Source of the DNA: Stappia sp. BW2
Lineage (GTDB): Bacteria > Pseudomonadota > Alphaproteobacteria > Rhizobiales > Stappiaceae
Length of the DNA: 64,000 nt
Reading direction: 5' to 3'
Assembly (NCBI RefSeq): GCF_008107695.1
Contig: NZ_VIRG01000070.1
Coordinates: 930,001 to 994,000 of the forward strand
Shown: positions 3,546 to 50,118 of the stretch, in pieces
Layout: each line of letters starts with the position of its first letter
Position numbering within the stretch: position 1 is the stretch's first letter
Made by a program: the position numbers and the translations under genes
The notes under the pieces: model-generated
Seen by the model: only the letters and a program-made list of their open reading frames with translations
Told to the model about the DNA's origin: nothing
The model's database searches: none

Positions 3546-4502
3546 GTGAGTGATGCCTACCCCAAGCTGGACGCCTTGCGTGCGGGTGGCAAGAGGCAGC
3601 TCTCACGTGTGCTCAGCCGGTTGGAAAGCCATTCGGAAGACGCGGAAACCGCAGCTTTTCTGGATCGGGCCGCCGGAGAGCCCACCGCGAAGGTGCTTGG
3701 CCTCACCGGTCCTCCCGGGGTGGGTAAATCCAGTCTGACGGATGCCCTCATCAAGGCCTGCCGGGCAGCGGGGCAAAGCGTGGCGGTGCTGGCCATCGAC
3801 CCGTCTTCCACGGTGACCGGAGGCGCGCTTCTGGGCGACCGCACCCGGTTGAAGACCGACCCTTCCGATGATGGTGTTTTCGTGCGCTCCATGGCTGCGC
3901 GGGATCGTCTCGGCGGTTTGTCCGATCATGCGGTTGCCGCGATTGCCGTTCTCAGGTGTGTCTGCGATTGCGTGATCGTTGAAACCGTTGGCATCGGCCA
4001 GTCCGAAGGCGATCTGAAGCAGGCTGTCGACACGGTTGTGCTGTGTATTCAGCCAGGATCCGGCGACAGTCTTCAGTTCATGAAAGCCGGCATCATGGAG
4101 TTGCCGGACATCGTGGCTGTTACCAAGGCCGATATGGGAGCGCTTGCGCGCCGGGCCACCTCCGACGTTGCCGGTGCCTTGTCGCTAAGCGACACAGGTG
4201 GCACGGGTGGGTGGACGGTACCGGTGTGCGAAGTCTCCGCGCAGACCCTCAGCGGCGTTGACGAACTGGTCGGGCATTGGCAGCGCCATCATGCCCATAT
4301 CGCGTCAGACAATACCTTGCAGAGGCAGCGGAAAGCTCAGCATGTCGCCTGGTTCAAGGATATGGTGCGCACGGAATTTGGCCATGCGGGACTGAAGCTG
4401 GCCGCCGGTTCGGGGCAGGACTGGCTGACGTCGGCCGAGACGGCCCCCTTTGCGAGCTTTCATGGCTTTTCCGCCAAGCTCCGGCCACTGCTGGGTGTTT
4501 GA
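3546..4502 (+). CDS. meaB: Methylmalonyl-CoA mutase-associated GTPase MeaB (ArgK family)
   Basis: Metallochaperone G protein that gates adenosylcobalamin loading and protects methylmalonyl-CoA mutase. It has the family length (318 aa). G1/P-loop GPPGVGKSSL lies near residue 60, a VETVGIGQSE switch follows the central DPSS segment, and the G4-like motif is TKAD. The start is a GTG at 3546 preceded by AGGGAG. No mutase gene is in the window, so its client must lie elsewhere. The older name LAO/AO transport ATPase is misleading. The gene converges on the CHASE4-GGDEF-EAL gene. Confidence 0.93.
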   Translation: MSDAYPKLDALRAGGKRQLSRVLSRLESHSEDAETAAFLDRAAGEPTAKVLGLTGPPGVGKSSLTDALIKACRAAGQSVAVLAIDPSSTVTGGALLGDRTRLKTDPSDDGVFVRSMAARDRLGGLSDHAVAAIAVLRCVCDCVIVETVGIGQSEGDLKQAVDTVVLCIQPGSGDSLQFMKAGIMELPDIVAVTKADMGALARRATSDVAGALSLSDTGGTGGWTVPVCEVSAQTLSGVDELVGHWQRHHAHIASDNTLQRQRKAQHVAWFKDMVRTEFGHAGLKLAAGSGQDWLTSAETAPFASFHGFSAKLRPLLGV

Positions 4503-4556
4503 TCCCAGGGAATGAAGCTCTGATTCCCCAGAAGAATTTGCAGGACTGACGCATAA

Positions 4557-4579
4557 GCCGCTTGCCGGGCCAAAGCGGC
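4557..4579. terminator. Short stem-loop between convergent meaB and diguanylate cyclase gene
   Basis: A perfect 7-bp inverted repeat GCCGCTT/AAGCGGC with a 9-base loop sits in the convergent gap and abuts the stop codon on the minus strand. There is no T-tract, so it is only a weak terminator candidate. Confidence 0.3.
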
Positions 4580-4580
4580 A

Positions 4581-6860
4581 TCAGGCTTCTGCTGCGCGCG
4601 CCTGCAAGCTCAGATCAGTGCCGAAGCCGGTGGCGCTGATGTTGTGGAAGTCGGCCAGAAACTGCGTCAGAGCTTCGTCCGACAACGGGCGGGAGATATA
4701 GAAGCCCTGCATCCGGTGGCAATTGTGCGCCTGCAGGAACCGGATCTGTTCCTGGGTCTCGATGCCTTCCGCCACGATGGTCATGCCGAGCGCCTTGCCG
4801 AGCTGGATGATCGAGACCAGGATTGCCTCGGCCTCCGCGTTTCCGTTCATGTCGGAAACGAAGTCCCGGTCGATCTTCAGCGTATCGAACGGGAACCGGC
4901 GCAGATAGCTGAGGCTGGAATAGCCTGAGCCGAAATCATCGAGAGCGACCTTCACGCCCAGGTTCTTCAGTCTTCGCAGGGCTTTCAGCACCGAATCGTT
5001 CCGGCCCGCAAAGACGCTTTCCGTCACCTCGATTTCGAGGCGCTGCGGCGGCAGGTTGTTGGCAGCCAGAATTGCCATGACCTTCTCGACAAACCGCGGG
5101 TGCTTGAACTGGTTCGGCGAAACGTTGACCGACACGGTGATGCCGGGCCATTCATGCGCCTTGGCGCAAGCCTTGTTGAGCACCCAGATGCCCAGATCGT
5201 TGATCAGGCCTGTTTCCTCGGCGACGGGAATGAACTGCGCCGGGGAAATGACGGTGCCGTCTTTCTTGGTCCAGCGCGCCAGAGCTTCCACACTGACGAT
5301 CCGTTTGGCCGAGGTATCGGATTGTGGCTGATAAGCAAGGTCCAGTTCGTCGTTCTTCAGCGCCAGGCGCAACTCACGTGACAGCCGGTCCTTGGACTGG
5401 ACGTGATGCTCCATGTTCGGTTCGAAGAAGGATCGGCGGCTTCGGCCGTTCTCCTTGGCATCGTAAAGCGCGATATCGGCCTTGCGCAGCAGTTCGTCCG
5501 GATCGTCACCGTCGCGTGGGGCCACGGCCGCACCCATGGAAAGGCTCGCATGAAGTTCACGGCTGCCGATCATAATCGGGCGGCTGATTTCGTCCTGAAC
5601 CTGATCGAGAATATATTCCAGCCAGACATCGTCTTCGCAGTTCTTGATGACCATCGCGAATTCATCGCCGCTGATGCGCGCAACGATCCCGGTTTCGGGA
5701 ATGACGCGCTGCAGCCGCTGGGCAACGGCAGTGATCACCTTGTCACCGGCGGAATGACCGAGGGTGTCGTTGATGTCCTTGAAATGATCGAGGTCGATGT
5801 AGACTACGGCGGTATTCGTTCCGTTGGTCGCGCTTTCTTCCAGTGTGTCCGTCAGCAGCGTATGGAAACGGGCGCGGTTCGGCAGGCCGGACAGGGCATC
5901 GTGGCGAGAGGCGTGCACCGCCCTGGCTTCACTTTGCGCCAGCCGCCTGGTCATCTGGTAGGTGAAGATGGCCACTGCGAAGACCACGGTGGCAATCATG
6001 AAAGCTGCCAGCCACAGGAACGGATTGATGCGGTACATCATCTGGCTGCCAGGCTCAGAGGTTTGCCACGCGATCAGGCCGACAACCTGCCCATGTGGCG
6101 ACTTCAGCTGAAAATGGCCGACACCGTCACGCTCGGTGTCTGTGGGGGCAAGAACAAAGCCGTTCAGGCGCGACATGTCGGAGATTTCTTTCAGCTTTTC
6201 ACCACGCAAGGGCACTAGGCTAACCAGCACTGTCGGTGGAAACCGCACCCGTGAAATCGACTGGATCTGCGGCATGACGGCAGCCGCGCTGAACAGATAG
6301 GGTTCGTCAGCCAGGGAAACGACGCCTGTTTCGGCGATTGACCGGCGAGCATCGCTGCTTTGCGGCACAAAGCTGTAAAGGCCGGACGGTGTGCGGCGGA
6401 AGGAGATGATGTAGCGGGCACGTACCTTGGCGATTGCAGGTTTCAGCTCGTCGAGCAGCTCTGGTGTCATCCATTTGCTTGTGTGGTTCTGCGCGTAGAT
6501 GTACTGCACGTCAAAATCACGATTGATCAGGATCGACTTTGTGAATCCGTGGTTCTGGAACAACCAGTGCATCAGATTGTTGTAGATCCAGCCTTCGTCC
6601 AGATCGGCCTGGTTGACCCTACGATAGGCTTCGTCCCAGATCACGACTCCGTTCTGCTGCTTCACCATGTAGTTCTGGGTGAGCTGCAGCGCACCCGCAA
6701 TCAGCTTGTTCTGAGATTCGACGGCAGTTTCGTCCGACAGGCGGGCAGACCAGTGCAGCAGGCCAAAGATACCGAAAACGGATATCATGACGATGACAAC
6801 CATCGGAATGATGATCGCGTTTGCAATCTGGCCGCCGGAATTTTTAGTCGAATTGTTCAT
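4581..6860 (-). CDS. Membrane CHASE4-GGDEF-EAL c-di-GMP signalling protein
   Basis: A 759-residue inner-membrane protein predicted to make and/or degrade cyclic di-GMP. Order: TM helix about residues 16-38, a periplasmic CHASE4-type sensor containing WDEAYR, a second TM about 278-303 (WLAAFMIATVVFAVAIF), a GGDEF domain with active-type variant SGDEF, then an EAL domain with intact EALAR, LDDFGSGYSS and KIDRDF motifs. Both catalytic halves therefore look competent, though net activity cannot be told from sequence. The ligand of the sensor is unknown. It is a stand-alone gene converging on meaB. Confidence 0.93.
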   Translation of the reverse strand: MNNSTKNSGGQIANAIIIPMVVIVMISVFGIFGLLHWSARLSDETAVESQNKLIAGALQLTQNYMVKQQNGVVIWDEAYRRVNQADLDEGWIYNNLMHWLFQNHGFTKSILINRDFDVQYIYAQNHTSKWMTPELLDELKPAIAKVRARYIISFRRTPSGLYSFVPQSSDARRSIAETGVVSLADEPYLFSAAAVMPQIQSISRVRFPPTVLVSLVPLRGEKLKEISDMSRLNGFVLAPTDTERDGVGHFQLKSPHGQVVGLIAWQTSEPGSQMMYRINPFLWLAAFMIATVVFAVAIFTYQMTRRLAQSEARAVHASRHDALSGLPNRARFHTLLTDTLEESATNGTNTAVVYIDLDHFKDINDTLGHSAGDKVITAVAQRLQRVIPETGIVARISGDEFAMVIKNCEDDVWLEYILDQVQDEISRPIMIGSRELHASLSMGAAVAPRDGDDPDELLRKADIALYDAKENGRSRRSFFEPNMEHHVQSKDRLSRELRLALKNDELDLAYQPQSDTSAKRIVSVEALARWTKKDGTVISPAQFIPVAEETGLINDLGIWVLNKACAKAHEWPGITVSVNVSPNQFKHPRFVEKVMAILAANNLPPQRLEIEVTESVFAGRNDSVLKALRRLKNLGVKVALDDFGSGYSSLSYLRRFPFDTLKIDRDFVSDMNGNAEAEAILVSIIQLGKALGMTIVAEGIETQEQIRFLQAHNCHRMQGFYISRPLSDEALTQFLADFHNISATGFGTDLSLQARAAEA

Positions 6861-12704: not shown

Positions 12705-13616
12705 TTAGCCGCCGCGACGCTGTTTTTTCAGCCAATCGCGCATGTCGACGATCCACTGGTAGCGATCGTGATCAACCTCGATCCAGCCTTCCTGCGTGCT
12801 GTCTTCGCCGCCGGTCATCTCGATGAAGGCGAGCGTGTCTTTTTCCGGGATCTCCATGACCGCGGTGCGCATGGCATCGATCAGCCCCTTGGGCAGGTTT
12901 GCGCGGGCGGCCAGCGGGCCGGAGGTGATTTCCGGGGATTTCCAGATGGTGCAGATCGAGTCTTTTTCGATCATGCCCTTGGTGACCATGCGCTGGGGAA
13001 TACCGTCTTCTTCGTTGGTGATGTAGGTGGCGGCAGCGTCATACTGCTTGTTGTAGACGCCAAGGACACCGGTTTCATGGGCGCCGGAGAAGGGGATGGC
13101 CTTGAAAAAGGTTTTCGGGTCGTAGCCCTGTTTGCTCAGGTTGAAGTAGGGGACCGCATAGCCGGAGGTGCTGTCCGGATCGGCAAAGGCAAGCGTCTTG
13201 CCTTTGAGGTCGTCCAGGGTCTTGTAGCCACTGTCGCAACGTACGGCGACCACTGAGAAATAGCCGGTGGAACCGTCTTTCTGCAGGCGCGAGACCAGCG
13301 GAACGATACCGCCGTTGGTTTCGGTGTAGGCGGCGGCATAGGAGGACGACCCGAAGAAGGCAAACTCGATCTGGTCGGCTGCCATCGCCTGGATCACGCC
13401 GTCGTAAGAGCCGGCCGTGAAGATCTCGACATCGACGCCGAGTTCATTTTCCAGGTATTTCTCAAACGGTGTGTAGCGGGCGATCCGGTCCTTTTCGTTT
13501 TCTCCGGACAGGATGCCGAACTTGATCGTCTTGTACTGGTCCTTCCAGCCTTCGGCGAGGGCCGGGGAGGCTGCAAGGATGGCAACGGATACGGCGGCTG
13601 CAAATAGGGCCTTCAT
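12705..13616 (-). CDS. phnD: Phosphonate ABC transporter periplasmic binding protein PhnD
   Basis: Solute receptor for phosphonates and related phosphorus compounds. The 303 residues start with a Sec signal (LFAAAVSVAILAASPALAE). The mature protein shows family landmarks: PFEKYLENELG, MAADQIEFAFFGSSSY and the SGAHETGVLGV loop that contacts the phosphonate group. The ATG at 13616 is preceded by AAAGGAG; the frame to 13661 is an artificial extension. Between phnC and phnE in a four-gene operon. Confidence 0.95.
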   Translation of the reverse strand: MKALFAAAVSVAILAASPALAEGWKDQYKTIKFGILSGENEKDRIARYTPFEKYLENELGVDVEIFTAGSYDGVIQAMAADQIEFAFFGSSSYAAAYTETNGGIVPLVSRLQKDGSTGYFSVVAVRCDSGYKTLDDLKGKTLAFADPDSTSGYAVPYFNLSKQGYDPKTFFKAIPFSGAHETGVLGVYNKQYDAAATYITNEEDGIPQRMVTKGMIEKDSICTIWKSPEITSGPLAARANLPKGLIDAMRTAVMEIPEKDTLAFIEMTGGEDSTQEGWIEVDHDRYQWIVDMRDWLKKQRRGG

Positions 13617-13705
13617 CTTAAGTCTCCTTTGGTGCCGGCTGGTCCGGCGGGTTGGCGGCACAAGCCGCTTAAGGCTGCGAGAGCGGAAAGACCGCTTCGC
13701 GAAAG

Positions 13706-14527
13706 TCAGGTCCCGAAGGCCTTGACGGGCTGCCGGGAAGAGGTTGCTGTCAGGGAGATGGAGGTCACCGCTTCGTTGATGTCGGCCGAAAGATCATCGG
13801 TGCCGTAGATCTGACGCACCTTTTCGCTTGTCAGTGCTTCCGGTGTGCCGTCGAACTGAACCCGCCCGTCCTTCATCGCGACGATCCGGTCGCAATAGGC
13901 ACGGGCAGTGTCGAGTGTGTGCAGGTTGACCAGAACCGTGAGACCGTCCGTCCGGTTGATTTCGCGCAGGGCGTCCATCACCCGGCTGGCATTGGCCGGA
14001 TCGAGAGAGGCAATCGGTTCGTCGGCCAGCATGATGCGCGGGTTCTGCACCAGTGCCTTGGCAATGGCGACACGCTGCTGCTGGCCGCCCGAAAGGGTTC
14101 CTGCACGTTGCAGCGCCTGGGGCACCAGACCGAGCCGGTCCAGCGCTTCGATGGCACGGGCGCGGTCTTCGTCGGTGAAGGAGCGCGTCATGGACCGCAG
14201 GAAGCCTGTGTGGGCTATCCGGCCGATCATGACATTGGTCAGCACATCCATGCGTTCAACAAGATTGAATTGCTGAAAGATCATCGCGCAGGACGCCCGC
14301 CAAAGGCGCAGGTCGCGGCCCTTCAGGGCCGTGATGTTCTGGCCCTCATTCAGGATCGTGCCCCGGCTGGGGTCGGTCAGCCGGTTGACCATGCGCAGGA
14401 AAGTGGACTTGCCGGCCCCCGATCGACCGATGACGCCCACCATCTGCCCCTTGGGAATGGCAAGGGAGACGCTGTCCACAGCGGTCAGGTCTCCAAACAC
14501 TTTTGATAATTGCTCAATGACCAGCAT
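13706..14527 (-). CDS. phnC: Phosphonate ABC transporter ATP-binding protein PhnC
   Basis: Cytoplasmic ATPase of the phosphonate importer, 273 residues. Walker [11 protein letters not shown]-loop region [17 protein letters not shown] (characteristic of PhnC), ABC signature LSGGQQQR, Walker B IMLADEP and the H-switch NLHTLD are all intact. First gene of the minus-strand phn operon, divergent from the second transporter operon across a 298-base AT-rich promoter region. Confidence 0.95.
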
Positions 14528-18034: not shown

Positions 18035-19207
18035 TTATTCGCCCGCCGGTTCCGGCAACGGTTCGTCGGTTTGAGGATTGAGCTTCTGGTCGGCGTCGGC
18101 CGTTGGTTGACTCGTGAAGCCCTTGAGGTCCGCGAATTCGCGGGCATCGCGCTGGATTTCCACCGGGCTCAGGGCGTAACCGGTGGCCAGTTCGGCAAGC
18201 GACCGCAGCGCATGCATGTGGATGCGTTCATAGCCGTGGCTGGCATCCACACCAAAGGTGATCAGTGCCGTGCGCACATCCGCACCCGCTTCAATGGCCG
18301 TTGCCGCATCGGAGCGGTAAAAGCGGAAGACATCCTTCTGGAACTTGATGTCATTGTCCCGGCAGAGCTGAACCATCTTGCGGGTCAGATGAAAATCGAA
18401 CGGGCCTGTCTGATCTGCCATCGCAATGGTGACGCCAAATTCGTCCGAATTCTGCCCGGGGGCGCTGGTGCCATTGTCGATGGCGACCAGTGAGGCGATG
18501 TCGGGCGTCAGGATAGATTGAGCGCCTTGGCCGGTCTCTTCCGCGATGGTGAATAGCCAGAACACGTCGACCGTCGGTTCGACGCCGGATTCCACCAACG
18601 CCTTGATTGCCGCCAGCATCACCGCGACCCCGGCCTTGTTGTCGAGGTGGCGGGAGACGATAAAGCCGTTTTCCAGGAATTCCGGAGCCGTGTCGATGGC
18701 AACAAAGTCGCCAACGTCGATACCCAAGCGATGCAGATCCTCCACCGACTTGGAATATGCGTCGACCCGAAGCTCGACATAGGGCCAGCCGACCGGAAGC
18801 TCATCGACACCGGTGTTGTACGTGTGCCCCGAGGCCTTCAGCGGCAAGATGGTGCCGGTATAGGCGCCGCTCTCGGAAAAGATCGTGGTGCGGGCACCTT
18901 CTGAGAACCGCGCGGACCAGTGACCGATGGGGACGAGCTCCAGACGGCCATTGTCCTTGAGGGACTTGACCTGGGCTCCGAGCGTATCGAGATGCGATAC
19001 GAAAGCCCGGGCGGGCCGGCGTTTTTTGCCGGAGACCCTCGCGCGAACTCCGCCGCGGCGTGTGATCTCGTAAAACACCCCGAGCGATTCCAGTTCCTTG
19101 GAAACATGACGGACGATCTCGTCCGTATATCCCGTCGGGCTCGGTATTTTCAGAAGATCCTTCAGCCTGTCGTTCAGGTAGGAAATGTCGATGTTTAGTA
19201 AGGTCAT
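18035..19207 (-). CDS. M42-family peptidase of the NAGGN osmoprotectant system
   Basis: 390-residue metallo-aminopeptidase-like protein of the M42 group. Zn-site segments are visible: FVSHLDTLG, RHLDNKAGVA and IAEETGQG. It is the third member of the conserved trio with N-acetylglutaminylglutamine synthetase and amidotransferase, and its start overlaps the synthetase stop (ATGA). Role in the pathway is inferred, perhaps turnover of the dipeptide amide when osmolarity falls. A short Glu/Asp-rich tail follows the catalytic domain. Confidence 0.9.
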   Translation of the reverse strand: MTLLNIDISYLNDRLKDLLKIPSPTGYTDEIVRHVSKELESLGVFYEITRRGGVRARVSGKKRRPARAFVSHLDTLGAQVKSLKDNGRLELVPIGHWSARFSEGARTTIFSESGAYTGTILPLKASGHTYNTGVDELPVGWPYVELRVDAYSKSVEDLHRLGIDVGDFVAIDTAPEFLENGFIVSRHLDNKAGVAVMLAAIKALVESGVEPTVDVFWLFTIAEETGQGAQSILTPDIASLVAIDNGTSAPGQNSDEFGVTIAMADQTGPFDFHLTRKMVQLCRDNDIKFQKDVFRFYRSDAATAIEAGADVRTALITFGVDASHGYERIHMHALRSLAELATGYALSPVEIQRDAREFADLKGFTSQPTADADQKLNPQTDEPLPEPAGE

Positions 19208-20985
19208 TGTCCGGCCCGGTTCAAGGTCGTCCTGACGGGCTGTGGCACCGACAGGGGAAACAGAAAGTCCACGAAGCGTTCGGCGGTCGGCTGAGGTTCG
19301 TGATTGGCAAGCCCCGGCCTCTCGTTCGCCTCGATAAAGCGATAGTCCGGTTGTCGCGGGTCTGCGACCATCAAGTCAATGCCTGTCACAGGAATTTCAA
19401 TGGCGCGTGCCGCCTTGATCGCCGCCTGAACGAGCGTGCTATGGGTTTCGCCGGTCACATCGTGGATGGTGCCACCCGTGTGAAGGTTGGCGGTGCGGCG
19501 AACCGGCAGGCTCTTGCCTTCCTGCAGGATGTCTTCGAGCTGAAAGCCGTTTGCGCTGAGGCAACGCAGCACTTCGTCGTCCACTTCGATCCTGGATTCC
19601 CCACCCGTTGCCGCGGCACGGCGTCGCGACTGGATATCGATCAGCTCGCCAATCGTCGACTTGCCGTTTCCTGTGACCTCTGCCGGCTTGCGCAGGGCAG
19701 CGGCCACCACCTTGTAGTCGATCACCACAAGGCGAAGATCCTGGCCCGTGACGAATTCCTCCACCAGAACGTCGTTGGAGTAGGTCCGGGCGACGTCGAC
19801 TGCAGCCATCACGTCTTCGGTTGTTGTCAGTCCGATGGCAATGCCCTTGCCCTGTTCCCCGCGCGCAGGTTTGACGACCACCGAGCCGTATTCTTCAAGA
19901 AACGCGGCGATCTCGTCGGCGGAGCCTGCCAGTATCTGGTTCGGCACACAGACACCGGCACGTTCGACAATGCGGCGTGTCGTGGCCTTGTCATCGCAGA
20001 TCGACATGGCGACGGCGCTGGTGAATTCGCTCAGGGATTCCCGGCAGGCAACCGAGCGTCCGCCATAATTCAGCCTGAAGAAGCCGCCTTCCGCGTCGAT
20101 GATCTCGGTCTGGATGCCGCGCCGCCGTGCTTCGTTCACAATAATCGTGGCGTAGGGATTGAGCTTGTCTTCCAGGGCAGGGCCAGCAAACAACGCCTCG
20201 TTGATCGTGTTCTTGCGCTTGACGGTGAAATAGGGAACCCGCTCGAAGCCGAGCTTGTCGTAAAGACCGATGGCAAGGTCGTTGTCGTGCAGGACAGACA
20301 GGTCCATGTACGGCGTGCCTTTGCCCTTGAAGACTTCCGCCATACGCCGAACCAGAGCTTCACCGATGCCCGGAAACCGGGCTTGCGGGGAAACAGCAAG
20401 ACACCAGAGTGAACTGCCGAGATCGGCGCCGTTGGTCACCCGGCCATGGTCAACCCCCATGGCAGTGCCGACGATCACGCCGGTTTCGTCTTCCTCAGCC
20501 ACAAGCACCGTGATGGTGCGCGGGTCGAGCTGCGACCAGAAGAACTCCGGCGGCACCGGCACCATGCCTCGGGTGAGGTAGAGTTCGTTGATCGCCTCGG
20601 CATCGCTGCGCGAGGACAGTCGGCGCACGGTGAAACCCTTGCGCCGGTTACGGGCCGGCCGGTAGGTCGCGAGATCCAGACGGAACGTGTGTGAGGGGTC
20701 CAGAAACAGCTCGTGAGGTGCCGATCCGACCAGCACATGCGGGTCGCGTACATAAAACGCGATGTCGCGCCTGTCAGGCCGTTCGTTGCGCAGCATCTCG
20801 ACCAGCTTGTCGGTTTCGCTGTAGGTATTGGCGAACACCAGCCGCCCCCAACCGCAATCGACAAAGCGGTTTTTCTGGGCTTCCGTCTCTTCCAGCCGGT
20901 ATTCCGGCTTCAGGCCATGCTGGCGCATGCGTTTCAGGCGATGGTCGAAGGCGCCCTTTGGCCGAGATGGTTCATTATCGGCCAT
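19204..20985 (-). CDS. ngg: N-acetylglutaminylglutamine synthetase (GNAT + ATP-grasp)
   Basis: 593-residue two-domain enzyme that builds N-acetylglutaminylglutamine, the precursor of the compatible solute NAGGN. The N-terminal half contains a GNAT acetyltransferase (about residues 115-260, with acetyl-CoA loop ARFPGIGEALV). The C-terminal half is a cyanophycin-synthetase-like ATP-grasp ligase (VVKPARGEQGKG near the middle, IEANERPGL near the end). The ATG at 20985 has an AGGAGGT site that lies within the end of the amidotransferase gene, 3 bases apart. Known from osmoadapted alpha- and gammaproteobacteria. Confidence 0.93.
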   Translation of the reverse strand: MADNEPSRPKGAFDHRLKRMRQHGLKPEYRLEETEAQKNRFVDCGWGRLVFANTYSETDKLVEMLRNERPDRRDIAFYVRDPHVLVGSAPHELFLDPSHTFRLDLATYRPARNRRKGFTVRRLSSRSDAEAINELYLTRGMVPVPPEFFWSQLDPRTITVLVAEEDETGVIVGTAMGVDHGRVTNGADLGSSLWCLAVSPQARFPGIGEALVRRMAEVFKGKGTPYMDLSVLHDNDLAIGLYDKLGFERVPYFTVKRKNTINEALFAGPALEDKLNPYATIIVNEARRRGIQTEIIDAEGGFFRLNYGGRSVACRESLSEFTSAVAMSICDDKATTRRIVERAGVCVPNQILAGSADEIAAFLEEYGSVVVKPARGEQGKGIAIGLTTTEDVMAAVDVARTYSNDVLVEEFVTGQDLRLVVIDYKVVAAALRKPAEVTGNGKSTIGELIDIQSRRRAAATGGESRIEVDDEVLRCLSANGFQLEDILQEGKSLPVRRTANLHTGGTIHDVTGETHSTLVQAAIKAARAIEIPVTGIDLMVADPRQPDYRFIEANERPGLANHEPQPTAERFVDFLFPLSVPQPVRTTLNRAGQ

Positions 20986-20988
20986 GTA

Positions 20989-22764
20989 TCAGACCTCCTG
21001 TGCCTGCAGCCACATTTCCAGCAGCGCGACCTGCCAAAGCTCGGAACCACGCAACGGCGTGATGTATTTGGTCGGGTCGGCATAAAGCTTCTGCAGGTAA
21101 ACCTCGTTGAAGAGGCCTCGTTCCCTGGCGGCCTGACTGGAAAGCGTATCGCGCACCATGTCGAGATACTCGCCCTGGATGTATTTCAGGGCCGGCACCG
21201 GGAAATAGCCCTTCGGACGGTCGATGACGGCGCTCGGAATGACCTTGCGTGCTGCTTCCTTCAAGACACCCTTGCCTTCCTGGGCGAGCTTGAATTCTGC
21301 CGGAATTCTGCCGGCCAGCTCGACCAGTTCATGATCGAGGAAGGGCACACGCGCTTCCAGTCCCCAGGCCATCGAATGGTTGTCGACGCGCTTGACCGGA
21401 TCATCCACCAGCATGACGTTGGTGTCGAGGCGCAGGGCCTTGTCTACCGGATCTTCCGCGCCGGAGCGGGCAAAGTGTTGCTCGACGAATGCAAGGCTTT
21501 CATCGCGCTCGCAATGATAGGCGGGCGAAACAGCTTCTGCCATCTGCGCTTCCGTACGATCGAAGAAGGCGGTGGCGTAGTCCGAGACAGGGCTGTTTGA
21601 GCCGCTGAGCTTCGGATACCAGTGATAGCCGGCAAAGACCTCATCGGCCCCTTGGCCGGACTGGACCACGGTGATGTGCTTGGAAACCTCACGCGACAGC
21701 AGATAAAAGCCGATGTTGTCGTAGGAGACCATCGGCTCCGACATTGCCTGGATCGCTCCGGGCAGGTTCTTCTGGAGCTCGGAAGAGGGAATGAAAATCT
21801 GCTGGTGATTGGTTCCGTAGTGTTCGGCGATCAGGTCGGAATACTGGAACTCGTCGCCCTTTTCGCCGTGGGCTTCTTCAAAGCCGATGGAGAACGTCGC
21901 AAGGCCTTTCTGGCCTTCCTCGGCCAGCAGACCGACGATCAGGCTGGAATCCACACCACCGGACAGGAGAACGCCGACGGGAACGTCCGCCACCATGCGG
22001 CGGCGAACCGCCGTGCGCAGGCTTTCAAGAACCGCATCGCGCCAGTCGTCGGCGCTGCGGGCGAGGTCTTCTGCTGATTTTTCAAACCGCGGCTCCCAGT
22101 AGGTATGCTCGCTGGAGCTGCCGTCAGGTTCAATCGTCCGCACCGTCGCGGCGGGCAGCTTGCGCACACCGTTCAGGATCGTGCGCGGCGCGGGAACGAC
22201 GGCGTGCCAGCTCATGTAGTGATGCAGGGCGACGCGGTCGATCGACTTGTCGATGCCGCCACCGGCCAGCAGCGCGGGCAGGGAGGAAGCGAAGGCAAGA
22301 CGTCCGTTCGCTTCGCTCAGGTACAGCGGCTTGATGCCGAACCTGTCGCGCGCCAGATGGATGCGGCCACTGTCGTGCTCGTGAATGGCGATGGCGAACA
22401 TGCCATGAAACCTGGAAAAACAATCCTTGCCCCATTCGGCCCAGGCCTTGAGGATGACCTCGGTATCGCTGGTGGAGAAGAACGAGTACCCGCGGTCGAT
22501 GAGCTCTGTCCGCAGTTCCTGATAATTATAGATGCAGCCGTTGAACACCAGCGAGAGGCCAAGTGCCATGTCGGTCATGGGCTGGGTGCCACGTTCGCTA
22601 AGGTCGATAATTTTCAAGCGCCTGTGCCCGAATGCGACCCGGCCGCGTTGCGTCACACCCATTCCATCCGGGCCGCGCGCCGCCATTGCGTCCGCCATCC
22701 GGCTGACCCGAACCACGTCTGCCTGGCTACCATTGAAAACCACTTCGCCGCAAATGCCGCACAT
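20989..22764 (-). CDS. asnO: N-acetylglutaminylglutamine amidotransferase (asparagine synthase-like)
   Basis: 591-residue glutamine-dependent amidotransferase that amidates the dipeptide to give NAGGN. Class II glutaminase starts MCGICGE with nucleophile Cys2; RGPDGMG and FNGCIYNY follow. The synthetase half has the PP-loop SGGVDSS and a QGADEVFAGY segment. First gene of the asnO-ngg-M42 operon, facing a MarR-type regulator across an 81-base gap that contains operator-like palindromes. Accumulation of NAGGN under salt stress is established for this gene set in Sinorhizobium. Confidence 0.93.
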   Translation of the reverse strand: MCGICGEVVFNGSQADVVRVSRMADAMAARGPDGMGVTQRGRVAFGHRRLKIIDLSERGTQPMTDMALGLSLVFNGCIYNYQELRTELIDRGYSFFSTSDTEVILKAWAEWGKDCFSRFHGMFAIAIHEHDSGRIHLARDRFGIKPLYLSEANGRLAFASSLPALLAGGGIDKSIDRVALHHYMSWHAVVPAPRTILNGVRKLPAATVRTIEPDGSSSEHTYWEPRFEKSAEDLARSADDWRDAVLESLRTAVRRRMVADVPVGVLLSGGVDSSLIVGLLAEEGQKGLATFSIGFEEAHGEKGDEFQYSDLIAEHYGTNHQQIFIPSSELQKNLPGAIQAMSEPMVSYDNIGFYLLSREVSKHITVVQSGQGADEVFAGYHWYPKLSGSNSPVSDYATAFFDRTEAQMAEAVSPAYHCERDESLAFVEQHFARSGAEDPVDKALRLDTNVMLVDDPVKRVDNHSMAWGLEARVPFLDHELVELAGRIPAEFKLAQEGKGVLKEAARKVIPSAVIDRPKGYFPVPALKYIQGEYLDMVRDTLSSQAARERGLFNEVYLQKLYADPTKYITPLRGSELWQVALLEMWLQAQEV

Positions 22765-45430: not shown

Positions 45431-47221
45431 ATGAGCGTACGCGACTTCCATTTCATAATGATCAAGCCAACTCATTATGACGACGATGGCTACCCGATCC
45501 AGTGGCTTCGTTCTGCGATACCGTCCAACACACTTGCCAGTCTGAACGGACTGGCAGAAAACGCGCGGAACCGTGAGGTGCTCGGAACGGGCGTCCGCAT
45601 CCATCTTCACACCTTTGATGAAACCAACAAACGGGTTCGTCCGGACAAGATCGCCCGGCAAATCCGAAAAGCGGGCGGATCTGCGCTTATTGCGCTGGTC
45701 GGGGTTCAATCAAATCAGTTTCCGCGCGCCGGCGACCTTGCGCGCACTTTCCTGAAGCAAGGCCTCCCGGTTGCCATCGGCGGGTTTCATGTCTCCGGCT
45801 GCATTTCCATGCTCGATGAAATGCCGGAAGAAATGGTGCAGCTGCAAAAGGAAGGGGTCGTCTATTTTGCCGGCGAGGCCGAGGACGGGCGGTTGGACGA
45901 CATCTTCCGCGATGCGTTTTCTGGAGATCTGAAGCCGCTCTACAACTTCATGGCGGATTTGCCGTCGCTGGAGGGGGAGCCGACACCGATCCTGCCTTCC
46001 CAGCACATTCGCTTCACGGCCGGATCGCATTCCAGTTTCGATCTTGGCCGCGGCTGTCCGTTCCAGTGTTCCTTCTGCACGATCATCAACGTGCAGGGCC
46101 GCAAGAGCCGGTTTCGGTCAGCCGATGATCTGGAGCAGATCTTTCGCGACAACGTCGCGCAGGGCATCGACCGCTTCTTCATCACCGACGACAATTTCGC
46201 CCGCAACCGGGAATGGGAACCCCTCTTCGACCGCCTGATCCGGTTGAGGGAGCAGGAGAACTTCGACATCAAGTTCATCATCCAGGTGGATACGCTCTGC
46301 CACCGGATTGACGGTTTCATCGAGAAGGCGACCCGGGCCGGGGTGAACCGGGTCTTTATAGGTCTGGAAAATATCAATCCGGACAACCTGCTTGCTGCCA
46401 AAAAGCGGCAGAACAAGATCACCGAATACCGCGAGATGCTGCAGAAATGGCGGGCGCACGGGGCGACCACCTATGCCGGTTACATCATCGGGTTTCCAGG
46501 GGACACGAAAGAGTCGGTCCTGCATGACGTCGAGATCATCAAGAAAGAGCTTCCTCTCGATCTGCTCGAGTTCTTCTACCTGACACCATTGCCGGGTTCC
46601 GAGGATCACAAGGTGCTGCTCGACAAAGGCATCTGGATGGATCCCGATCTCAACAAGTATGACCTCAATCACCGGGTGAACCATCACCCGAAAATGAGCG
46701 ACGAGGATTGGGAGGACGCCTATCGGCAGGCCTGGGCGAGTTATTATTCAGATGGCCACATCGAGACGGTGCTGCGCCGGGCCGCTGCACACCGCAAGGG
46801 CCGTCCGGGCAATAAGCTGTTTCTGATGATGTGGTTCAAGCTGATGGTCGAATGCGAGGGCGTTCATCCGCTGGAGGGCGGTTACTTCCGCCTGAAATTC
46901 CGAACCGACCGACGCGGTGGCCTGCCGCTTGAAAATCCGCTTACCTTTTATCCGCGCTATCTGGCTGAAATCGTCGCCAAACATTGGACCTATCTGTCCG
47001 CCGTCTGGCGGGTTTACCGGATCTACCGGAAGGTCAAGGCATCGCCTGACAGGCGGACCTATTCCGACCTTGCCATCGCGCCGATGAACCGGAGCGAAGA
47101 GGAGGATCTGGCGATGATCCGGGAAACGCGTGGCGGTACGGAAGCGGTTGCCAAACAGCTTCGCGATGCAGCGCTCTCCAAGGCCGGTAAGGATCGGGCA
47201 AAGGCGGCTACGGCCTTGTGA
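45431..47221 (+). CDS. B12-binding-like / radical SAM protein
   Basis: 596-residue radical SAM enzyme. Residues about 1-165 form a Rossmann domain like cobalamin-binding domains (ALVGVQSNQFP, VAIGGFHVSGC) but without the DxHxxG cobalamin signature. The core has C209-x3-C213-x2-C216 in GCPFQCSFC, which ligates the 4Fe-4S cluster. A basic C-terminal region of about 180 residues follows. Strong GGAGGGA ribosome site. It precedes a GNAT-C39 fusion and an RLAN-ATP-grasp ligase in the same direction; substrate unknown. Confidence 0.9.
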   Translation: MSVRDFHFIMIKPTHYDDDGYPIQWLRSAIPSNTLASLNGLAENARNREVLGTGVRIHLHTFDETNKRVRPDKIARQIRKAGGSALIALVGVQSNQFPRAGDLARTFLKQGLPVAIGGFHVSGCISMLDEMPEEMVQLQKEGVVYFAGEAEDGRLDDIFRDAFSGDLKPLYNFMADLPSLEGEPTPILPSQHIRFTAGSHSSFDLGRGCPFQCSFCTIINVQGRKSRFRSADDLEQIFRDNVAQGIDRFFITDDNFARNREWEPLFDRLIRLREQENFDIKFIIQVDTLCHRIDGFIEKATRAGVNRVFIGLENINPDNLLAAKKRQNKITEYREMLQKWRAHGATTYAGYIIGFPGDTKESVLHDVEIIKKELPLDLLEFFYLTPLPGSEDHKVLLDKGIWMDPDLNKYDLNHRVNHHPKMSDEDWEDAYRQAWASYYSDGHIETVLRRAAAHRKGRPGNKLFLMMWFKLMVECEGVHPLEGGYFRLKFRTDRRGGLPLENPLTFYPRYLAEIVAKHWTYLSAVWRVYRIYRKVKASPDRRTYSDLAIAPMNRSEEEDLAMIRETRGGTEAVAKQLRDAALSKAGKDRAKAATAL

Positions 47222-47281
47222 GTGATAGGGGGAGCCTTGCGCCGAAGGAGCCGCCAGCCAGAGGTCATTCCCAGTGCCGCA

Positions 47282-47398
47282 ATGATGATCTCCGCGGTGG
47301 CGACAAGGACAACTGAGGAACGTATTTTCCCTTGTTTCCTGCGTTTTGGAAAATGTGTTGCCGCTGCGAAAATTCTCGAAGACAGCAGGCGCAAATAG
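47282..47398 (+). other. 38-codon ORF between radical SAM and GNAT-C39 genes
   Basis: ATG at 47282 to TAG 47398 encodes a 38-residue basic peptide with two Cys (FPCFLRFGKC). No ribosome site. Listed only because it lies in the 295-base gap of a possible peptide-modifying set. Confidence 0.15.
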
Positions 47399-47516
47399 GT
47401 GTATTTCGCAAAGGCCGCCGACCGGTCCGCGCAGCTTTAACACTGCCTCAGGACCGTCGCCAATTTTGGATGGAGACCGGGCGCGGCACACCGGACACTG
47501 GGTCTTTCTAGGCACC

Positions 47517-48647
47517 ATGGACAAGGCTTTGCCCCAGGCCGAAACCGGGGACACTTTCATTCGCATTGCCGAGCCCGGCGACCTTGCCGAATTGTTCCGC
47601 ATTGAAAACGCCGCCTTTGCCGGGGATCGCATTTCCCGGCGAAGCTTCAAGCGTTTTCTGGACAGCCCCCGCGCACGGCTTCTGGTAGCCATCGGTCCGA
47701 ACGGGCTGGTCGGTTACGCGTTGCTGCTTTTGCGCCAGGGCACGGCGCTGGCAAGGCTATATTCGCTGGCCGTCGATCCTGTCTGCCGGGGGCAGGGGCT
47801 CGGGGCAAAGCTCTTGAAAGCGTCCGAGGCTGCCGCCTTCGACAGCGAGCGCATTGTGCTGCGGCTTGAGGTGCGGGCGGACAACGAGACCGCCATCGCG
47901 CTTTATCAGCGTGGCGGCTACCGCATGCTTGGCAAGGTGGAGGCCTATTACGAGGACGGCTGCGCTGCGCTGCGCATGGAAAAGCTGCTGCATGGTCCGG
48001 TATTGGGCACGGGAAACGCTCCATATTATTCCCAGACCACCGAATTCACCTGTGGACCTGCCTGTGCGCTGATGGCGGCACGGCATTTTGACCGGTCCGT
48101 GCCGGCAGAACCCTTGACCGAGCTTACGCTCTGGCGGGAGGCGACGACGATCTATCTCGCCTCGGGGCATGGTGGCTGCGGCCCGTTTGGGCTTGCCAAT
48201 GCCTTGGCGCGGCGCGGGCTTGCCGTTGAGGTTCGGCTGTTTCCCGATGATCTTCTGTTTCTCAACTCCGTCCGCGACCCGGAAAAGCGGAAGGTGCTGA
48301 CACTGGTTCAGGAAGGCTATCGCACAGAAGCCGAAGAGCTTGGCGTTGCCCGTTCGGAAAACCCTTTGGAAGCAACGGCCCTTGCTGCCGAGATTTCAGC
48401 CGGAACGCTGGCGATCGCGCTCATCTCCGGCTACCGCATGTTTGGTCAAAAAGTTCCTCATTGGGTGCTCGTGCACGACGCGGACGACCGCCACCTGATC
48501 ATTCATGATCCGTGGCTGGAGCGAGAGCGCCATGAAAGCCCGGCGGATGCTGCCAATCTTCCGATTCCCTTTGCCGAATTCGACCGCATGGCCCGTTGGG
48601 GCAGAACCGCGGTCCGTGCTCAAATCCTGATACGAAAGGACGCCTGA
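47517..48647 (+). CDS. GNAT acetyltransferase / C39-like cysteine peptidase fusion
   Basis: 376-residue two-domain protein. Residues about 12-155 are a GNAT domain with the acetyl-CoA loop RGQGLG (91-96). Residues about 165-370 are a papain-like C39-type peptidase: TCGPACALMA with Cys179, PHWVLVHDAD with His315 and HDPW with Asp331, a full triad. Start at ATG 47517 (frame to 47346 has no domain). It ends 4 bases before the RimK-like gene. This architecture is known from predicted amidoligase operons; the product is not known. Confidence 0.88.
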   Translation: MDKALPQAETGDTFIRIAEPGDLAELFRIENAAFAGDRISRRSFKRFLDSPRARLLVAIGPNGLVGYALLLLRQGTALARLYSLAVDPVCRGQGLGAKLLKASEAAAFDSERIVLRLEVRADNETAIALYQRGGYRMLGKVEAYYEDGCAALRMEKLLHGPVLGTGNAPYYSQTTEFTCGPACALMAARHFDRSVPAEPLTELTLWREATTIYLASGHGGCGPFGLANALARRGLAVEVRLFPDDLLFLNSVRDPEKRKVLTLVQEGYRTEAEELGVARSENPLEATALAAEISAGTLAIALISGYRMFGQKVPHWVLVHDADDRHLIIHDPWLERERHESPADAANLPIPFAEFDRMARWGRTAVRAQILIRKDA

Positions 48648-48651
48648 TCCA

Positions 48652-50118
48652 ATGTCTTCCTGGGTCATTCTGGTCGACCACCTCAAAGATCTCTCCAACA
48701 CGGATACACCGCACAAGGTCATGACCGTGCGTGAGTACCTGACGCATCCAAAACTGTTTGCCGGTGCCAAGCCGACCATTCTCAACCTGGCCCGGTCCTA
48801 CGCCTATCAGGGCGCGGGCTATTATGCGTCTCTTTTGGCCGAAGCGCGCCAGCACCGGGTGGTGCCGGTTGTCGAGACCATGATCGAACTGTCCCGCAAG
48901 CAGCTCTATCAGCATGCCTTGCCGGAACTTGAAGACCGGCTGAACCGCTGCCTGCGCAAGATGGCGCCCGAAGCTGCCGGTGCGGTTACAAGATTGCTGG
49001 TCTACCTCGGCCAGGTCGGTGATCCCGCGCTTGAACCGTTCGCCCGGCTGCTGTTCGACTGGTTCCGGGCACCGGTGCTGGAAGTGCTCTTGGAAGAGGG
49101 CGAGTGGCGCAGCATCAAGCGGATCCGCGTGTTGGCGGTGAACGATCTTGAAGCGGAAGAACGTGCGCATTTTCTGGCTGCGGTGGAAAGCTATACGACA
49201 CGTCCCTGGCGGGCTCCGAAACAACGCGCCTTGATGAAGTATTCCATGGCTGTTCTTTCCGACCCCAAGGAAGAATTGCCGCCGTCTTCCATCGCCTCGC
49301 TGAAGCACATGGCCAAGGTGGCCGCGCGCCACGGAGTTGAAGTCGTGCCTATCGGGAAGGGCGATCTCGACAAGCTGGCGCAATACGACGCCCTGTTCAT
49401 TCGCGAGACCACCAACATCGACAATCACACCTATCGGTTTGCCCGGCGCGCCGTGCAGGAAGGCATGCCGGTGATCGACGATCCGGTGTCGATGATCCGC
49501 TGTACCAACAAGGTCTATCTGACCGAGCTTCTGGCAAGCCACGGCATCGCGACGCCCAAGACCATCGTCCTGTCTTCCCTGAAAGAAGCGGGTGACCTGG
49601 AGGCCAGGCTCGGCTCACCCATCGTTCTCAAGATCCCTGACGGCTCCTTCAGCCGCGGTGTTTTCCGGGTGACGGGTGCAGACGCCATCAAGGAGAAGCT
49701 GAAAGAGCTTTTCCAGGAAAGCGCCATTCTGCTTGCCCAGGAGTATTGCCCGACGGATTTCGACTGGCGCATCGGTGTGCTGGACGGCGAACCGCTGTTT
49801 GCGTGCCAGTATCTGATGGCCAAGAAACACTGGCAGATCGTGCGGCACGAGACCGGCAAGAAAGCCGTCGAGGGCGGGTTCAAGACTGTTTCCATGGCCG
49901 AAACGCCACCGGCGGTCATCGATATCGCCGTACGGGCAGCCCGCCTGATTGGGGATGGTCTTTACGGGGTCGACCTGAAGGTGATCGGAGAGCGGGTGGT
50001 GGTCATTGAGGTCAACGACAATCCCAATCTCGATCACGGGGTTGAAGATCTTGCCGAAAAGGATGCTGTCTGGGATCAGCTCATTCGCTGGTTTGTGCGC
50101 CGCCTGGAGGCGCGTTAG
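48652..50118 (+). CDS. RLAN-ATP-grasp (RimK family) ligase
   Basis: 488-residue ligase. The N-terminal part (about 1-190) matches the RLAN domain seen before RimK-like ATP-grasps. The C-terminal part (about 275-485) is ATP-grasp with IVLKIPDGSFSRGVF, LAQEYCPTDFDWRIGVLDG and a metal-binding EVNDNPNLDHG. RimK-type enzymes form amide bonds to glutamate or other amino acids. Translationally close (4 bases) to the GNAT-C39 fusion, so both likely act on one substrate. Next gene is thrS. Confidence 0.9.
   Translation: MSSWVILVDHLKDLSNTDTPHKVMTVREYLTHPKLFAGAKPTILNLARSYAYQGAGYYASLLAEARQHRVVPVVETMIELSRKQLYQHALPELEDRLNRCLRKMAPEAAGAVTRLLVYLGQVGDPALEPFARLLFDWFRAPVLEVLLEEGEWRSIKRIRVLAVNDLEAEERAHFLAAVESYTTRPWRAPKQRALMKYSMAVLSDPKEELPPSSIASLKHMAKVAARHGVEVVPIGKGDLDKLAQYDALFIRETTNIDNHTYRFARRAVQEGMPVIDDPVSMIRCTNKVYLTELLASHGIATPKTIVLSSLKEAGDLEARLGSPIVLKIPDGSFSRGVFRVTGADAIKEKLKELFQESAILLAQEYCPTDFDWRIGVLDGEPLFACQYLMAKKHWQIVRHETGKKAVEGGFKTVSMAETPPAVIDIAVRAARLIGDGLYGVDLKVIGERVVVIEVNDNPNLDHGVEDLAEKDAVWDQLIRWFVRRLEAR

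Follow-up and report, generated by a model that had tools for sequence, protein, structure and literature searches.

A coupled GNAT and RLAN-ATP-grasp ligase gene pair with an optional C39-like domain beside a radical SAM gene in Stappia sp. BW2

In the 64,000-nucleotide stretch of the Stappia sp. BW2 genome analysed here (contig NZ_VIRG01000070.1, positions 930,001 to 994,000; hereafter, the window), a radical SAM gene precedes a gene for a GNAT acetyltransferase fused to a C39-like peptidase domain (DUF3335) and a gene for an RLAN-ATP-grasp ligase, and the question that this locus raises is which of these parts belong to one system. We found that the GNAT and the ligase are the coupled core, that the C39-like domain is an optional part, and that the radical SAM gene is best judged a positional neighbour. 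With the radical SAM gene removed and the C39-like domain recognized as an add-on, the question narrows to two genes and one domain. As to their function, we tentatively favour, at a probability of about 0.45, a two-gene module of a RimI/Ard1-type N-acetyltransferase and an RLAN-RimK-type ligase that would act on a peptide or protein, the radical SAM gene being a neighbour.

GNAT and ligase genes are coupled across genomes

Among 299 Pseudomonadota genomes, RLAN was present in 56 and DUF3335 in 47, and both domains occurred together in 46 of the 47 DUF3335-bearing and 46 of the 56 RLAN-bearing genomes. The two lie at most 3 kb apart in 44 of the 46 genomes that hold both (the exceptions are G125 and G307), in agreement with the initial annotation, which took the GNAT-C39 fusion and the RLAN-ATP-grasp ligase for a unit. 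Nine of the 10 RLAN-bearing genomes without DUF3335 were examined, and in all nine a stand-alone GNAT of ~150-160 amino acids adjoins the ligase.

The same coupling is seen locus by locus in three partly overlapping sets (the contigs of L234 and L280 equal those of G021 and G392 in length). Of 80 loci from named species, the 80 best among 587 confirmed candidates and thus weighted towards Alphaproteobacteria, 78 have a GNAT adjoining the ligase, with C39 in 49 and without it in 29; the exceptions are L308 and L307, the latter with a stretch that starts 325 bases ahead of the ligase. Laboratory strains with the pair include Azospirillum brasilense (L306) and Mesorhizobium ciceri (L272). The 34 RLAN loci from relatives hold GNAT-C39 in 31 cases and GNAT only in three. 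The phylum set, drawn from the 299 genomes, comprises 36 of 59 RLAN matches and 4 further DUF3335 loci, and its 36 RLAN loci divide into 24 with GNAT-C39, 11 with GNAT only and one with neither (L195, which belongs to G307, where the GNAT-C39 gene is on another contig, L226). For L296, which has two separate ligase matches, only the GNAT-C39 was used. The 78 GNAT genes of the named set run in the direction of the ligase in 74 cases and opposite to it in four; among 66 co-directional pairs of gene calls, 40 overlap, 14 are separated by 0-20 nucleotides, 5 by 21-100 and 7 by more than 100. In one locus (L212:7056-8972, minus strand), a GNAT is fused ahead of the RLAN-ATP-grasp protein in a single 639-amino-acid frame, with a separate GNAT-C39 gene on the other strand. 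Across many genera, no gene other than the GNAT recurs beside the ligase in the 127 loci compared; the next most frequent neighbour cluster, ABC-ATPase-like, is found in 12 of them, at scattered positions.

The window's own pair lies on the forward strand. The fusion gene (47517..48647) encodes 376 amino acids when read from the ATG at 47517, or 433 from an alternative TTG at 47346; the ATG is probably the true start, because it is the one picked by a codon-bias-based gene caller and because homologues measure ~360-400 amino acids. The protein matches Pfam Acetyltransf_1 at 55.3 bits (cut-off 20.7) over its GNAT part (47517..48000) and DUF3335, the ‘Peptidase_C39 like family’, at 260 bits (cut-off 25) over a papain-fold part (48021..48632). 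The ligase gene (48652..50118, 488 amino acids) encodes an RLAN domain (48727..49179, contig positions 978727-979179; 142.1 bits, cut-off 25) followed by a RimK-like ATP-grasp domain (49507..50037; 38.1 bits, cut-off 21). Between the fusion's stop codon (48645-48647) and the ligase's ATG at 48652 the gap is 4 bases, as initially described, and the open reading frames and Pfam scores likewise confirm the domains and places assigned to all three genes. The closest named locus, among the best 80 of 587 matches, is that of Roseibium marinum, with a ligase identity of 86%, which makes the window's genome Roseibium-like.

The C39-like domain is an optional part of the pair

The core consists of the GNAT and the RLAN-ATP-grasp ligase, and the C39-like domain is optional, because it is absent from 29 of the 78 named loci that have a GNAT and because its presence has changed many times on the ligase tree. 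On a quick, unrooted tree of 79 chosen ligases, 51 of which are accompanied by C39, the C39 label requires 16 changes, at least 12 of them forced by starred branches, compared to 23.2 for shuffled labels; the label is therefore clustered, yet has switched many times, with gains and losses indistinguishable on such a tree. The tree and the alignments exclude L047, L056 and L064, three relatives in which the ligase frame is split into two pieces, by either decay or sequencing error, as well as L051, which is truncated at the end of its contig. Naturally occurring loci allow the states with and without C39 to be compared; G174, for example, holds two ligase copies, one (L194) with GNAT-C39 and the other (L228) with GNAT alone.

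L229 carries two additional copies of the GNAT-C39 type that have no ligase (4136-5194 on the minus strand and 13324-14394 on the plus strand). They flank genes that by eye resemble a dipeptide-type ATP-binding cassette (ABC) transporter, and the same gene clusters stand beside the GNAT/ligase pair in L033.

The radical SAM gene occupies a variable slot

The radical SAM gene (45431..47221, plus strand; 596 amino acids) encodes a CX3CX2C motif at residues 209-216 and matches Pfam Radical_SAM at 76.3 bits (cut-off 29.5). If the fusion starts at the ATG at 47517, 295 nucleotides separate the two genes, so that only the fusion and the ligase are tightly spaced. The initial annotation counted the radical SAM enzyme as a member of the system and proposed to check whether it is kept with the pair in orthologous neighbourhoods. 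It is not conserved with the pair, either in relatives or in the named loci.

Among 121 relatives, RLAN is present in 35 and a close homologue of the radical SAM gene (E ≤ 1e-60) in 56; 20 genomes have both, 15 RLAN only, 36 the radical SAM gene only and 50 neither, and the association is not significant (Fisher p = 0.16, kinship ignored). Within the window's genus (45 genomes), the radical SAM gene occurs in 34 genomes, RLAN in 14 and both in 12. In favour of membership, the radical SAM gene adjoins or is near the pair in 12 of these 14 RLAN-bearing genomes, and in 13 of the 35 RLAN-bearing relatives overall; however, of the 31 genomes of the genus that lack RLAN, 22 have it as well. Among the 34 RLAN loci from relatives, it lies inside the locus in 12, the window being the thirteenth, and in 4 of these 12 transporter and regulator genes separate it from the pair. 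Seven genomes with both RLAN and the radical SAM gene have the latter elsewhere, and only one of the 80 named loci, that of Roseibium, includes it.

The gene order at this place is FolE-SufU-YidD-[slot]-ThrS. We sampled 16 of the 18 same-genus genomes with a close radical SAM copy and no pair (G030 and G031 were left out); tblastn placed SufU, YidD, the radical SAM gene and ThrS in order in 16 of 16 and detected neither the GNAT-C39 nor the ligase in any of these loci. An EamA-type transporter gene stands between the radical SAM gene and ThrS in 14 of the 16, joined in 13 of these by an Lrp-type regulator gene (family names from one scanned member each); in L100 and L109, the distance from the radical SAM gene to ThrS is 422 and 120 nucleotides, respectively. 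Conversely, two other genera of the family provide 11 loci (8 from g4 and 3 from g5) in which the pair follows YidD without a radical SAM gene, and two loci of the window's own genus (L051 and L053) show the same arrangement. In L095, L096, L097 and L101, a gene of ~217-248 amino acids, which has no Pfam match in the one member scanned, stands between the radical SAM gene and ThrS, where other strains hold the pair, a further sign that the slot is variable. Given that the slot is filled independently and that the radical SAM gene is found in one of 80 named loci, we judge this gene to be a neighbour by position only, outside the module, in a slot of variable content that separates yidD from thrS.

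As to the radical SAM protein itself, no NCBIfam model came near its cut-off, and the DxHxxG motif of B12-dependent chemistry is absent from it. The family is multi-copy in the window's genus, with up to 4 copies per genome, and the more distant copies are found in varied contexts (loci L110-L133).

Predicted properties of the GNAT, C39-like and ligase proteins

The GNAT part is RimI/Ard1-like. Its best curated profile is RimI (TIGR01575), at 75 bits in one scan and 78.4 in another against a cut-off of 86.4, so that membership of the RimI family itself was rejected; it is the second-best RimI match in its own genome, the best (93.8 bits) being elsewhere. A fold search with the GNAT part placed Escherichia coli RimI and archaeal Ard1 at the top, and the AlphaFold2 model of the fusion has a mean predicted local distance difference test (pLDDT) score of 90.7. 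With residues numbered from the ATG at 47517, E118 is invariant in both alignments (34/34 in A2 and 25/25 in A4), Y130 is present in 32/34 and 22/25 sequences, respectively, and Y144 and Y145 in 33/34 each (A2). The segments that hold E118, Y130 and the YY pair are also found in Ard1 and in the genome's own RimI. We take the glutamate and the tyrosine 12 residues further on to be the catalytic pair of RimI; the YY pair grips the peptide backbone in N-terminal acetyltransferases.

In the C39-like part, C179 and H315 are invariant in both alignments (34/34 in A2), position 331 holds aspartate in 28 of 34 sequences and glutamate in the other 6, and a second cysteine, C221, is found in 34/34 and 24/25. 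A profile search for solved relatives of this domain returned a best match at E = 0.034 only.

The core of the ligase is RimK/ArgX/LysX-like. K287, K327, D441, E453, N455 and D456 are invariant in alignments of 44 and 36 sequences. Fold matches span ~310 columns of the 488, and, by E-value, a D-Ala-D-Ala ligase comes first, followed by RimK with RpsF, ArgX with LysW, and LysX. Membership of the RimK family was rejected (TIGR00768, 85.3 bits against a cut-off of 143.4); a RimK-family gene over the cut-off (289.8 bits) exists elsewhere in the same genome.

Proposed working of the module and alternative explanations

In the reading that we favour, the ligase would turn a carboxylate into an acyl phosphate and then add amino acids onto a peptide or protein in the manner of RimK; the GNAT would acetylate an alpha-amine on either the substrate or the product of that ligation; and the cysteine domain, where present, might trim or transfer the added residues, roughly as RimB counteracts RimK. 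PMC12239564 describes how RimK extends RpsF at its C-terminus with glutamates, which RimB can remove.

Several observations weigh against this reading. The GNAT and the ligase both score under the cut-offs of the RimI and RimK families, the best fold of the ligase by E-value is that of a small-molecule enzyme, and its model (pLDDT 87.7) has a predicted template modelling score (pTM) of only 0.61. Two ligases, L195 (one of the 36 in the phylum set) and L308, stand without a GNAT beside them. Acetyltransferases of the RimI type can also use other amines, and we know of no reported activity, substrate or mutant phenotype for the pair. A trimming role for the C39-like domain would follow by analogy only, RimB being an aspartic and not a cysteine protease. 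A more specific version, in which a widespread system caps with the RimI-like domain, extends with the RLAN-RimK-like ligase and erases or transfers the extension with the optional papain-like domain, is suggested by the RimI/Ard1 motifs, although we regard it as unlikely in this full form. If true, it would join RimK/RimB and RloC/RloA as a further case in which a RimK-type ligase is paired with a protease.

The strongest alternative, which we consider plausible although somewhat less probable than a module acting on a peptide or protein, is the synthesis of a small N-acetylated di- or oligopeptide, in the style of N-acetylglutaminylglutamine amide (NAGGN): the GNAT would acetylate an amino acid or a dipeptide, ligation would fall to the ATP-grasp enzyme, and the C39-like domain would hydrolyse or transfer. 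The D-Ala-D-Ala ligases among the best folds of the ligase, together with the lack of a conserved protein-substrate gene nearby in the 127 loci, speak for this explanation, and the RimI/Ard1 motifs for the one that we favour. GNAT plus ATP-grasp is also the architecture of NAGGN synthetase, and L212 likewise has the GNAT ahead of ATP-grasp within a single chain. The window itself holds this second GNAT and ATP-grasp system in a complete-looking NAGGN osmolyte operon (18035-22764, minus strand) ~25 kb from the pair, with an M42 peptidase (TIGR03106, 569 bits), N-acetylglutaminylglutamine synthetase (TIGR03103 at 19204-20985, 866 bits) and an amidotransferase (TIGR03104, 995 bits) all over their cut-offs. 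However, the two genes of the pair reach only 23.8 and 23.6 bits with TIGR03103 (cut-off 569), and we rejected membership of the pair in that family; the pair has an RLAN domain, and the search for conserved neighbours in the 127 loci revealed no AsnO-like amidotransferase. By eye, the GNAT of the window's NAGGN synthetase has a Ser in place of the RimI/Ard1 Glu that the pair's GNAT keeps, and lacks the YY.

A graspetide-like cluster, in which the ligase and the C39-like domain would mature the precursor of a ribosomally synthesized and post-translationally modified peptide, is improbable. ATP-grasp and C39-like domains do co-occur here, and the fold search with the ligase lists PsnB, a graspetide ligase, at rank 36. 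Against this, the C39-like domain has a GNAT as its fusion partner rather than an ABC transporter, the overlap of many GNAT genes with their ligase genes leaves no room for a precursor between them, and no gene other than the GNAT recurs across many genera in the 127 loci, where open reading frames under 45 amino acids were dropped by the gene caller and short or distant precursors were not systematically searched for. Finally, the three-gene biosynthetic cluster of the initial annotation, with the radical SAM protein as tailoring enzyme, is very improbable. In its favour, that gene accompanies the pair in 13 relatives, 12 of them from the window's genus; against it, each part of the supposed cluster is found in the slot without the other, only one of the 80 named loci has the gene, and in seven genomes with both it lies elsewhere.

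Comparison with known systems

The pair belongs to a kind that has already been predicted in print: Iyer et al. in 2009 (Mol Biosyst 5:1636) reportedly predicted pairs of GNAT-C39 (DUF3335) proteins and RLAN-ATP-grasp amidoligases by comparative genomics. The window's pair shows the same traits, namely, both Pfam domains, a GNAT-DUF3335 fusion, an adjoining ligase with RLAN ahead of the RimK-like ATP-grasp domain, conserved adjacency, and no established product; we see no difference within the pair, the neighbouring radical SAM gene lying outside it. The 2009 study is cited in PMC8939145, PMC12239564, PMC4431377 and PMC10318531. The present analysis contributes that the radical SAM gene falls outside the system, that C39 is optional, that a variant with a stand-alone GNAT exists and that L212 holds a fusion; some of these points may already be covered by the 2009 paper.

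Like RimK/RimB and RloC/RloA, the pair combines a RimK-like ATP-grasp core fold with an associated protease domain; it differs from RimK/RimB in its score under the RimK cut-off, in the extra RLAN domain and in having a papain-like protease fused to the GNAT in place of a retropepsin-like one. The GNAT part resembles the RimI/Ard1 N-terminal acetyltransferases in its best curated profile and best folds, whereas it scores under the RimI cut-off and is fused to C39, and the genome's over-cut-off RimI match is another protein. The initial description, of a system predicted to make or modify peptides or metabolites and with no established product, holds. No experimental study of the pair was found in the open literature on DUF3335, PF11814, PF14401 and RLAN/ATP-grasp, a search outside which most subscription papers fall, although RLAN is present in close to a fifth of the Pseudomonadota genomes sampled, as counted above.

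Lineage-limited neighbours

In some lineages, the pair keeps company of its own. Mesorhizobium-type loci (L272, L266, L210 and similar ones) have a gene for an extracytoplasmic function (ECF)-type sigma factor and an unassigned gene of 262-264 amino acids, then the pair, then a DUF3303 gene, neighbours that are a possible clue to regulation. The neighbours in Hyphomonadaceae-type loci resemble, by eye, rplU, rpmA and obgE. A DUF2817 gene is found near the ligase or the GNAT-C39 gene in L202, L205, L207, L216, L227 and L231, with DUF155 in three of these (both assigned from one scanned member each), and DUF2817 is possibly a peptide-degrading partner in that lineage.

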